DNA of 34,097 nt from Bacteroidales bacterium (GTDB lineage: Bacteria; Bacteroidota; Bacteroidia; Bacteroidales; UBA7960): contig PWJZ01000055.1 in NCBI GenBank assembly GCA_003559855.1, positions 1-34,097 on the forward strand, read 5' to 3'. Numbering within the stretch: the first letter of the stretch is position 1; every line of letters starts with the position of its first letter. Positions 29,987 to 32,528 of this stretch are shown here, one piece after another. The translations under genes and the position numbers were made by a program. Under the pieces are notes generated by a model. It searched no databases. It saw nothing but the letters and a program-made list of their open reading frames with translations, and was not told the DNA's origin.

Positions 29987-31411
29987 ATGAAAATTCTTTT
30001 AACCGGAGCTACAGGATATATTGCCAAAAGATTGCTGCCGGTTTTGCTTTCCGACGGGCATGAAGTTATATGTTGTGTCCGAGATAAGAAAAGATTTGAT
30101 GCTTCACAATATGACTCTGCAGGAATTTCTGTAATTGAAGTTGATTTTTTGAAAAGGGATACGCTTGATTCCGTTCAAAAAGATATTGATGCGGCTTTTT
30201 ACCTTATTCACTCCATGTCTTCATCAATTAATGACTTTGAATCTATGGAGATTGAGTCGGCTAATAATTTCAGGGAATGCATGAACCAAACCGGTGTCAG
30301 GCAGGTAATATACCTTAGCGGGATCGTCAATTACAAAGAGTTGTCAAGACATCTTTCTTCACGTAAAGCAGTAGAAGACGTCCTGAAAAAAGGCAACTAC
30401 CATTTAACCACCTTAAGGGCAGGTATAATTTTAGGTTCGGGAAGCGCATCATTTGAGATAATACGCGATCTTGTCGAGAAACTTCCCGTAATTATTGCTC
30501 CCAAATGGATAAAAACCAAAACCCAACCCATAGCAATACGAAATGTTTTACATTACATGAAAAGTGTTTTGCTAAACGAACAAACTTTCGACAGGAGTTT
30601 TGATATAGGAGGGCCCGATGTTATGACATATAAAGATATGTTGCTTCAGTTTGCAGAAGTGAGAAATCTGAAAAGACGGGTTTTAATTGTGCCATTCCTT
30701 ACTCCCAGACTTGCCTCAAATATGCTTTATTTTATCACATCAACATCATACAGGCTTGCCGTAAATCTTGTCAACAGCATGAAAGTGGAGGTCATTTGCA
30801 GTGAAAACAATCTTAATAAGATCATTGAGACCGATCTTATTCCATACAAGGAAGCTGTTCGACTGGCTTTCGACAAAATCAGACAAGAAGAGGTGTTGTC
30901 AAGCTGGACTGACGCCCTTGCAGGCAGCATCCTGGAAAAAGGAATATCAAACTTCATCAACATGCCTGACCATGGTTGTTTTGTAAATAGAAAATGTGAA
31001 TCCATAAATGATGAAAAACTTGTATTTGAACGTATTTGGACTATAGGCGGAAATAACGGATGGTATTATGCCAATTGGCTGTGGCGCTTAAGAGGTTTTA
31101 TTGATAAGCTTTTGGGAGGTGTGGGAATACGCCGCGGAAGAAGAAGCAGCATCAGCATTTATCCGGGCGATTCACTCGACTTCTGGCGTGTATTGCTTGC
31201 CGACAGAAAGGAAAAACGGTTGTTGCTTTATGCTGAAATGAAACAACCCGGTGAAGCTTGGCTCGAATTTAAAGTAAAAGACAATAAACTCTGTCAAACA
31301 CTAACCTTCAGACCATTGGGGATTTTAGGCAGACTCTATTGGTATGCAACTTTACCGTTTCTGATTTATATTTTAAAAGGTATGATAAGAAAAATTGCCA
31401 GAACCAAATAA
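29987..31411 (+). CDS. NAD(P)-binding SDR/epimerase with DUF2867 domain
   Basis: The N-terminal 230 or so residues form an atypical SDR Rossmann fold. The nucleotide-binding loop is LLTGATGYIAKRLLP, with Ala where the third glycine usually lies. FYLIHSMSSS and VIYLSGIVNY follow, and an LSSRKAVEDVL segment stands in the position of the usual Tyr-x-x-x-Lys. The C-terminal part (about 310-474) fits DUF2867, including ERIWTIGGNNGWYYANWLWRLRG and a final hydrophobic stretch LYWYATLPFLIYIL. This two-domain layout is common and generally annotated as NmrA/epimerase-like; substrate is unknown. The missing Tyr-Lys pair suggests a sensor or non-classical catalyst. The gene stands alone. Confidence 0.85.
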   Translation: MKILLTGATGYIAKRLLPVLLSDGHEVICCVRDKKRFDASQYDSAGISVIEVDFLKRDTLDSVQKDIDAAFYLIHSMSSSINDFESMEIESANNFRECMNQTGVRQVIYLSGIVNYKELSRHLSSRKAVEDVLKKGNYHLTTLRAGIILGSGSASFEIIRDLVEKLPVIIAPKWIKTKTQPIAIRNVLHYMKSVLLNEQTFDRSFDIGGPDVMTYKDMLLQFAEVRNLKRRVLIVPFLTPRLASNMLYFITSTSYRLAVNLVNSMKVEVICSENNLNKIIETDLIPYKEAVRLAFDKIRQEEVLSSWTDALAGSILEKGISNFINMPDHGCFVNRKCESINDEKLVFERIWTIGGNNGWYYANWLWRLRGFIDKLLGGVGIRRGRRSSISIYPGDSLDFWRVLLADRKEKRLLLYAEMKQPGEAWLEFKVKDNKLCQTLTFRPLGILGRLYWYATLPFLIYILKGMIRKIARTK

Positions 31412-31479
31412 ACTAAAAAAATAAGCCGATGCCTGCCGGTTTATGCCTGCTGAACGCTAAAAAATTTATGCTTTTACTA

Positions 31480-31649
31480 CATTAGTGTTGCGCTGTAATC
31501 TTATCATTTGTTCTGAAACCCATTATTTACAAGTACTGTAGCGCACTTTGATATTTTTTGATTTCAAAAACATTTTGTTTTTATGAGCCTATAAGTAGCT
31601 GATTATCAGCACTAATTTTCTTGAAAACAAAAACAACGCAACACTTATG
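31480..31649. mobile_element. MITE-like element with 13-bp terminal inverted repeats
   Basis: The ends CATTAGTGTTGCG (31480-31492) and CGCAACACTTATG (31637-31649) are inverted copies with one mismatch. Directly outside lie identical 9-bp direct repeats CTTTTACTA (31471-31479 and 31650-31658), as expected of a target-site duplication. The 170-bp body has no ORF but further palindromes, such as GCTGATTATCAGC and a TGCGCT/AGCGCA stem. It would need a transposase supplied elsewhere. The rest of the spacer 31412-31928 shows no gene. Confidence 0.65.
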
Positions 31650-31846
31650 CTTTTACTATATGAAAATAAGATGTTTTTCCCCTGACAAGCCGCAATGAAC
31701 ACTTAACTTTTCCTGGTTAACTAAAATAAAGATTTTTTTATAGCTCTTTGTTCAAAAAATTAAGAAACTATTGCATCAAAAGCTATGATTTTCAGCCAAT
31801 TATTAATAAATATCTCGTATACCGAACTCACATTAAAGACTTTCTT

Positions 31847-31854
31847 TAACTTTG
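31847..31854 (+). promoter_or_regulatory. Promoter -7 box for the DUF1847 gene
   Basis: TAACTTTG is an exact TAnnTTTG match 75 nt before the start codon. Confidence 0.65.
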
Positions 31855-31916
31855 ACAGTGATCTTAATTTTCAGGACTACCATTAAAAAGTAAACACACT
31901 TTTTACAATTAAAAAT

Positions 31917-31922
31917 AAGGAG
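31917..31922 (+). promoter_or_regulatory. Strong Shine-Dalgarno before DUF1847
   Basis: AAGGAG lies 6 nt before the ATG at 31929 and fixes the start. Confidence 0.75.
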
Positions 31923-31928
31923 ATTGTT

Positions 31929-32528
31929 ATGGTTATTAATTGTGCAGGATGCAAAACATTCAACTGTTACGAAGGAGAAGATTGTGTGCGTGGTCAGGAT
32001 TTTAAGGCTTATGATGCTCCAACAAGAAGCGAATATAGAAAAGCTGATAATAAGAAGTTGTTGGAAGTTTCTACCCGCATAGAAGGAGAACATTACATGG
32101 AGTGGACAAGGATTGAGGAAATTATCGGCTTTGCCGGTCAAATGGGCTATAAACAGATCGGTATTGCACATTGTGTCGGGCTGATAAATGAAGCTAAAAC
32201 CCTGAAAGATATCCTCGACAAAAGATTCAAAGTTCATGCCGTTTGCTGCAAGTTTTCGGGAATTGACAAAAAGGATTTCAATCTTAAACGAATTCGCAAC
32301 AACAGACGTGAGTCAATTTGCAGTTCGATCGGGCAGGCAATGGTGCTTAATGATCTGAGGACAGAGTTGAACATCATAGTCGGTTTATGCATCGGTCATG
32401 ATATATTGTTTACCAGATATTCTGAAGCACCGGTAACCACATTTATAGTAAAAGACAGGGTAACAGGTCATAATCCGGCCATAACCCTTTATTCAAATTA
32501 TTACAGCAGAAAGTTTCTCGATAAGTAA
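31929..32528 (+). CDS. DUF1847 cysteine-rich, probably metal-binding protein
   Basis: The 199-residue product matches DUF1847. It opens with CAGCKTFNCYEGEDC (four Cys within about 15 residues, suited to a metal site). Then come a charged stretch, RIEEIIGFAGQMGYKQIGIAHCVGLINEA, a central AVCCKFSGIDK, and a C-terminal GLCIGHDILF followed by DRVTGHNPAITLYSNYY. Families of this type occur mostly in anaerobes such as Clostridia and Deltaproteobacteria. The function is unknown; an Fe-S or zinc role is inferred from the cysteines. It is soluble and stands alone with a phylum-type promoter but a Shine-Dalgarno start. Confidence 0.9.
   Translation: MVINCAGCKTFNCYEGEDCVRGQDFKAYDAPTRSEYRKADNKKLLEVSTRIEGEHYMEWTRIEEIIGFAGQMGYKQIGIAHCVGLINEAKTLKDILDKRFKVHAVCCKFSGIDKKDFNLKRIRNNRRESICSSIGQAMVLNDLRTELNIIVGLCIGHDILFTRYSEAPVTTFIVKDRVTGHNPAITLYSNYYSRKFLDK

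Follow-up and report, generated by a model that had tools for sequence, protein, structure and literature searches.

Does the intergenic spacer near the right end of the 34,097-bp stretch analysed here (the window) hold a mobile element, and if so, what moves it? A MITE with a 9-bp target duplication had been proposed at this place from the letters alone, and the boundaries of that original prediction are correct to the base. The 13-bp ends, CATTAGTGTTGCG and CATAAGTGTTGCG (both read inward), are identical at 12 of 13 positions, and they are bordered exactly by identical 9-bp repeats (Table 1). Extended to 17 bp, the arms of the terminal inverted repeat (TIR) are complementary at 15 of 17 positions (88%). 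Stops occur in all six reading frames of the 170-bp segment, which contains no transposase gene, and the claim of a non-coding interior thus stands. Our reading, to which we give a probability of roughly 0.93, is that the segment is a MITE and that an IS4-family transposase is its likely mover.

Table 1. Coordinates of the 170-bp element and its parts in the window.
Feature	Position	Strand	Remark
MITE, non-coding, 170 bp	31480..31649	+	orientation: IS-5'-like half on left
9-bp target duplication, left copy, CTTTTACTA	31471..31479	.	sequence and shuffle scan
9-bp target duplication, right copy, CTTTTACTA	31650..31658	.	sequence and shuffle scan
Terminal inverted repeat, left, CATTAGTGTTGCGCTGT	31480..31496	+	
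Terminal inverted repeat, right, CATAAGTGTTGCGTTGT (read on - strand)	31633..31649	-	
Left subterminal stretch resembling IS4-family 5' non-coding end, GTTCTGAAAC ... TTTTTTGATTTCAAAA	31510..31569	+	moderate

The window was scanned for 13-bp inverted repeats 60 to 600 bp apart that are bordered exactly by identical 9-mers, with dinucleotide-preserving shuffles as the null. When at most one TIR mismatch is allowed, the element itself is the single place found, against none in 200 shuffles; at most three mismatches again give one place, against a mean of 0 in 60 shuffles, and at most five give 5 places against a mean of 1.5 in 60 shuffles, at which point the scan no longer discriminates. The identical direct repeat is actually 14 bp long (TTATGCTTTTACTA), the left flank matching for five bases beyond the 9-bp duplication. 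Since the copies on contig C58 and in genome G001 (below) fit a 9-bp duplication, the extra five bases would be coincidence or target context and the duplication itself 9 bp. The interior had also been called palindromic. A second arm pair (14 nt, 86%, 31573-31586 / 31619-31632) does lie inside the element and both strands fold better than shuffles (z -4.3 and -5.6), but the folding is due in part to the TIRs. The left subterminal stretch contains an inner inverted repeat of 10 predicted pairs, each of which is broken in 0 to 2 of six aligned copies, so that it is largely kept.

Other copies had been suggested as a check, and they were found in the element's own genome (G000; 2.97 Mb in 131 contigs), which holds three, a low number. 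The copy at C58:123985-124154 is 96% identical to the one in the window over the same 170 positions and has its own exact 9-bp duplication, AGTGCAATA in contig orientation or TATTGCACT in element orientation; the copy at C77:11739-11907 is 84% identical and has no flanking duplication. Six of 147 genomes searched, the own genome included, match the element at E 1e-4 or better. Among them G028 and G029 give diverged, nearly full-length matches, and G001 and G002 give partial ones. Outside the bacterial family there are short partial matches alone (39 bp in G111 among the 147 genomes, and 31 bp in G768 among 393); the 393-genome search covered few family members, and it undercounts weak copies because fewer candidates were scored per genome and the known C77 copy was missed. 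Two contigs of G001 each stop within the element; their overlap of 71 bases is identical, and on the outer flank of each stands AATTGCGAG, a third distinct 9-bp duplication after those of the window (CTTTTACTA) and C58 (TATTGCACT). In the G028 and G029 copies, which were delimited by position, the ends are altered and no duplication is visible. Thus an exact 9-bp duplication is present at three of the six full-length copies (window, C58 and G001) and absent from the C77, G028 and G029 copies. Compared pairwise, the six are 64% to 96% identical with 0 to 4 gaps and are 169 to 171 bp long. The prediction of a MITE with a 9-bp target duplication is therefore borne out both by its boundaries and by its further copies.

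Nine contigs (L043, L051, L044, L052, L054, L056, L045, L053 and L057), which belong to G001, G006 and G028, stop about 118 to 121 bp inside an element or IS end. These stops look like repeats collapsed in short-read assembly, so the three genomes may hold more copies than are visible.

The element starts 68 bp past the stop of a gene for an NAD(P)-binding/DUF2867 protein (29987-31411) and a DUF1847 gene (31929-32528) begins about 280 bp after its end, so neither neighbour is interrupted. Among the relatives examined no empty site turned up: the two neighbour genes are not adjacent within the available flanks. The DUF1847 gene occurs in 6 of 47 family genomes and the upstream gene in 22 of 47, the own genome being included in both counts. 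At the other five DUF1847 loci the upstream neighbour was not found within the available flank, of which little remains where a contig ends nearby; the downstream flanks compared, those of 6 of 22 other upstream-neighbour loci, show no conserved spacer. The C77 copy (L035:5740-5908) lies between what we take to be a peptidase-like and an ispH-like gene, and regions upstream of ispH were compared in 3 of 7 loci. At the corresponding place G002 and G003 presumably have a gene of the squalene/phytoene-synthase type. Relatives of this gene were found in the own genome on contig C78 alone (43% identical) and not in G001, and G002 and G003 each have a second one (55-56%). Both absences, of the gene and of the duplication, would follow from a deletion beside the C77 MITE.

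The likely source of a transposase is an IS4-family IS of about 1.3 kb with DDE_Tnp_1 and DUF4372 domains that makes 9-bp duplications. The observation that no transposase in the window matches the element held when the window ORFs of at least 80 aa were read by eye, which showed no transposase, and contig C85 carries the own genome's single match to PF01609 (DDE_Tnp_1). There, a 1313-bp IS-like stretch has ends CATTAGTGTCCGA / CATTAGTGTTCGA, slightly different from the TTGCG type, and a frameshifted transposase split over two frames. PF01609 and TIR searches of the own genome found no intact IS4-type helper and no IS with both TTGCG ends. Of the 53 PF01609 matches listed for the family, 30 were taken as loci, 29 of them other than the own one, and both TTGCG-type ends were present in one of these 29 (L059, in G023). 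L059 is thus an IS in the window's own family; it is 1310 bp long with CACTAGCGTTGCG at both ends, and its flanking 9-mers differ at 4 of 9 positions and so form no matching duplication. Its 390-aa transposase scores 255.7 bits against NCBIfam IS4_1 (NF033592; cut-off 115) and also matches PF01609 and PF14294 (DUF4372). The criteria for the IS4 family in De Palmenaer et al. (2008; PMC2266710) are a Y(2)R(3)E(6)K motif and D(60-110)D(100-150)E spacing. The L059 transposase has the YREK motif YKSRWGIETFFKWIK, with equivalents in L112 (below) and the own C85 copy, and candidate DDE residues are D at 131 and 197 and E at 300, the choice of the D residues being our own.

With the L059 protein as query, 37 of 395 genomes of the class were matched. 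When the best end pair was taken at each of 31 IS loci (L059 and 30 others), an exact 9-bp duplication was present in 8 and absent in 23. One of the eight, L112, is a 1310-bp IS with CACTAGCGTTGCG at both ends and the exact 9-bp duplication AACTAGAAT; in the remaining seven the ends are related, with GTCC where L112 has GTTGC. Full-length ISs with ends near-identical to those of the MITE therefore exist, and an exact 9-bp duplication flanks one of the two. Overall, the 13-bp MITE ends agree with IS4-type IS ends at 10 to 13 of 13 positions. The expectation of ISs with matching ends was thus realized in other genomes, where 9-bp duplications accompany them, whereas the ends of the own IS4-type copy are slightly different. 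Among three further plasmid IS records, two have an exact 9-bp duplication and the third is a circle without flanks. A 'plasmid' record from Bacteroides finegoldii (L189; NZ_OY725889.1, 1318 bp) contains little besides an IS4-family IS whose ends are about 2 bp apart, and represents either an IS circle or an error of assembly.

Matching ends were also sought directly. The TIR pattern, with at most one mismatch, gave 21 matches in 9 of the 47 family genomes, and a reversed control pattern gave none. Six of these belong to the own-genome copies and two to G001; the copy in G028 accounts for one, and another is next to that in G029. Ends of IS-like repeats make up seven more, of which G006 has four and G028 three; each of the seven sits at a contig edge, about 120 bp from where the contig stops. 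The remaining four are unassigned single ends in G030, G046, G018 and G005. The G006 and G028 contigs that break inside IS-like repeats carry ends CATTAGYGTTGCGTT. The G006 end was assigned by alignment with the 5' end of L059, and the G028 ends were assigned by eye; the G028 contig-edge repeats end in CATTAGTGTTGCGTTAT, adjoining sequence that by eye is like the own IS4 copy at its 3' end. A paired-end scan of the genome collection for lengths of 149 to 179 bp yielded 25 stretches, of which 14 were inspected: one (L102) is the G028 copy, one (L110) is a second type of MITE, and 12 appear by eye to be chance occurrences. Viral contigs gave four stretches with one end each, and a looser scan found a second end in none of the four.

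The segment, then, has the size of a MITE, no transposase gene, TIRs, independent duplications and three copies in the own genome, and its ends are common to autonomous ISs (L059, L112 and the contig-edge repeats in G006 and G028). It is a MITE. We propose that it is a non-autonomous member of an IS4-family group whose ISs are about 1.3 kb long and have DDE_Tnp_1 and DUF4372 domains and ends CAYTAGYGTTGCG. By analogy with the cut-and-paste transposition known from IS10 and IS50, an IS-encoded transposase, acting in trans, would bind both ends and excise the element, the excised element would be joined to staggered target cuts 9 bp apart, and repair of these cuts would leave the flanking 9-bp repeats.

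Could the MITE have arisen from such an IS by internal deletion? Bases 18-110 of each MITE end were compared by position with four IS 5' ends (L059, L112, the own C85 copy and G006) against a null of 1500 real AT-rich segments from the loci analysed, the G028 end L045 lying outside the set. The left ends resemble the IS 5' ends in the window (p 0.0033), C58 (0.0040), C77 (0.0060), G001 (less than 1/1500) and G029 (0.0053) copies and less so in G028 (0.072), although these six tests are not independent because the copies are related. The right MITE ends give p 0.24 to 0.70 against the same 5' ends, and the left ends compared with the four IS 3' ends give 0.013 for C58, 0.022 for the window and 0.10 to 0.39 for the others. 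The left half of the MITE thus appears moderately similar to the 5' non-coding end of IS4-family ISs, and the right half matches neither IS end. When the interior was compared locally with nine IS ends and L110 in both orientations, 4 of 20 comparisons reached p ≤0.02 by simple shuffles, one of the four being with the 3' rather than the 5' end of L059; interior similarity to the ISs appears weak. Among the ISs examined there was none that could yield the whole MITE by excision. L110 shares an 18-base IS 5' word, GAGCAACGATTTGAAAAT, with L059 at an equal distance from the end, and shorter pieces of this word stand at the same distance in the G006 and L112 ends, which makes it plausible that MITEs of this group arise by deletion. 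We infer that the MITE originated by internal deletion of an IS4-type IS, a route that at the level of sequence comparison is believable for the group and falls short of proof for the window element.

The same ends could in principle be recognised by a transposase of some other family, in which case the element would still be a real MITE and its likeness to IS4-type ends would be convergent. Duplications of 8-9 bp are made by several other families too, the own genome yielded no intact IS4-type partner, and most IS interiors lack a match to the MITE. Against this are the agreement of the MITE ends with IS4-type ends, an IS group that itself makes 9-bp duplications, the likeness of the left half to IS 5' ends, and the presence of GAGCAACGATTTGAAAAT in L110 at L059's distance; we consider another mover very improbable.

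Still less probable is that the segment is a conserved intergenic element with a function, for instance a structured RNA or a regulatory hairpin, that was dispersed in some other way and is flanked by repeats through coincidence. Its better folding than shuffles and the near-constant length of six copies with up to 36% difference between them speak for such a role. Promoter, Rfam and covariation analyses gave no sign of one: 31300-32000 contains 3 promoter-like sites against 3.0 in shuffles, there is one weak terminator-like stem, inside the element, where 0.5 is expected, and the window contains no tRNA. A structured RNA was rejected since Rfam gave no match in 31300-31950 at E up to 1 and covariation is negligible (two-sided change in 2 of 32 consensus pairs, with a slightly unfavourable covariation term). 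Exact 9-bp duplications at three different sites and the different neighbouring genes of the three own-genome copies also argue against it. Finally, the element is AT-rich (31% G+C against 38% in the window), as an AT-rich spacer arranged by chance would be, but the 200 shuffles without a hit and the C58 copy, whose 96% identity spans exactly these 170 positions, refute this reading, whose probability is vanishingly small. For annotation, the MITE can be masked as mobile DNA and not treated as a conserved regulatory element.

Among known systems, an IS on plasmid 2 of Polaromonas sp. JS666, whose transposase is annotated to the ISPosp4 family of IS4-like elements, has ends CAGTAGTGTCCGGTTAAA (18 of 18 in both arms); the Polaromonas copy of this group is 1328 bp long with the 9-bp duplication AGATTCGAT, and in a relative from a plasmid of Parabacteroides distasonis the ends are CATTGTTGTCCC / CATTAGTGTCCC and the 9-bp duplication is TTTTACAAA. 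The group resembles the MITE in the opening of its ends and in duplication size, but it encodes a transposase, and after CAnTAGTGT it has CC where the MITE, L059 and L112 have TGCG. The IS4Sa subgroup is tabulated in De Palmenaer et al. (2008; PMC2266710) with ends CA------T, a length of 1150-1750 bp, direct repeats of 8-10 bp and the YREK motif. L112 fits all four of these traits (ends CACTAGCGT, 9 bp, 1310 bp), an assignment by table row and not by tree; the MITE fits in ends and repeat length but has no transposase.

The MITEs of Porphyromonas gingivalis (BrickBuilt, MITE239, MITE464/PgRS and MITE700; PMC4596501) are like that of the window non-coding, from Bacteroidota and provided with TIRs that match those of resident ISs; unlike it, they match ISPg elements of the IS5 family, and their printed TIRs differ. 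The same paper gives a MITE size range of 50-1000 bp, which accommodates 170 bp. MITEAba12 of Acinetobacter (PMC6382973) is similarly non-autonomous, with a proposed autonomous IS parent and spread across a bacterial family, but its host family is another and its proposed parent is ISAba12. A narrow search of open-access literature, judged by titles and the openings of abstracts, gave no IS4-derived MITE from Bacteroidota. With the present element, an uncultured Bacteroidota family gains a MITE family linked to the IS4 group, including copies with clean 9-bp duplications.

The second type of MITE, L110 (L110:332-501), comes from the Bacteroidales MAG CSSed10_347. G028, which the genome search places in the window's own family, seems to be Bacteroidales bacterium isolate B1Sed10_143R1, since by reading L102 and the G028 copy have one and the same sequence; both CSSed10 and B1Sed10 are datasets from hypersaline soda-lake sediment (PMC6146748). 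This 170-bp MITE-like element has ends CACTGGCGTTGCG / CAATAGCGTTGCG, an interior largely unrelated to that of the window element, and flanks TCATCAAGC/TTATCAAGA that by reading are alike at 7 of 9 positions. In its own comparison set, 4 of 20 gave p below 0.02, the fourth being a 17-base match to the G001 MITE. Its length equals that of the window element, although the scan that found it admitted 149 to 179 bp alone. The six copies in three genera, at 169-171 bp despite up to 36% difference, raise the idea that length is enforced and that these MITEs evolve in sequence and not in length. We think this unlikely; if true, the pairing of IS4-type ends would prefer a fixed spacing of about 16 helical turns.

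End-like sequences are also found doubled. In G029 (L050:1501-1517), CATTAGTGTTGTGTTGT stands directly outside the element end TACTAGTGTTGCATTGT, and in G046 (L047) the end-like CATTAGTGTTATGTCAA directly precedes CATTAGTGTTGCG. Together with the TTATG that precedes the duplication in the window, these may hint at insertion near existing ends.
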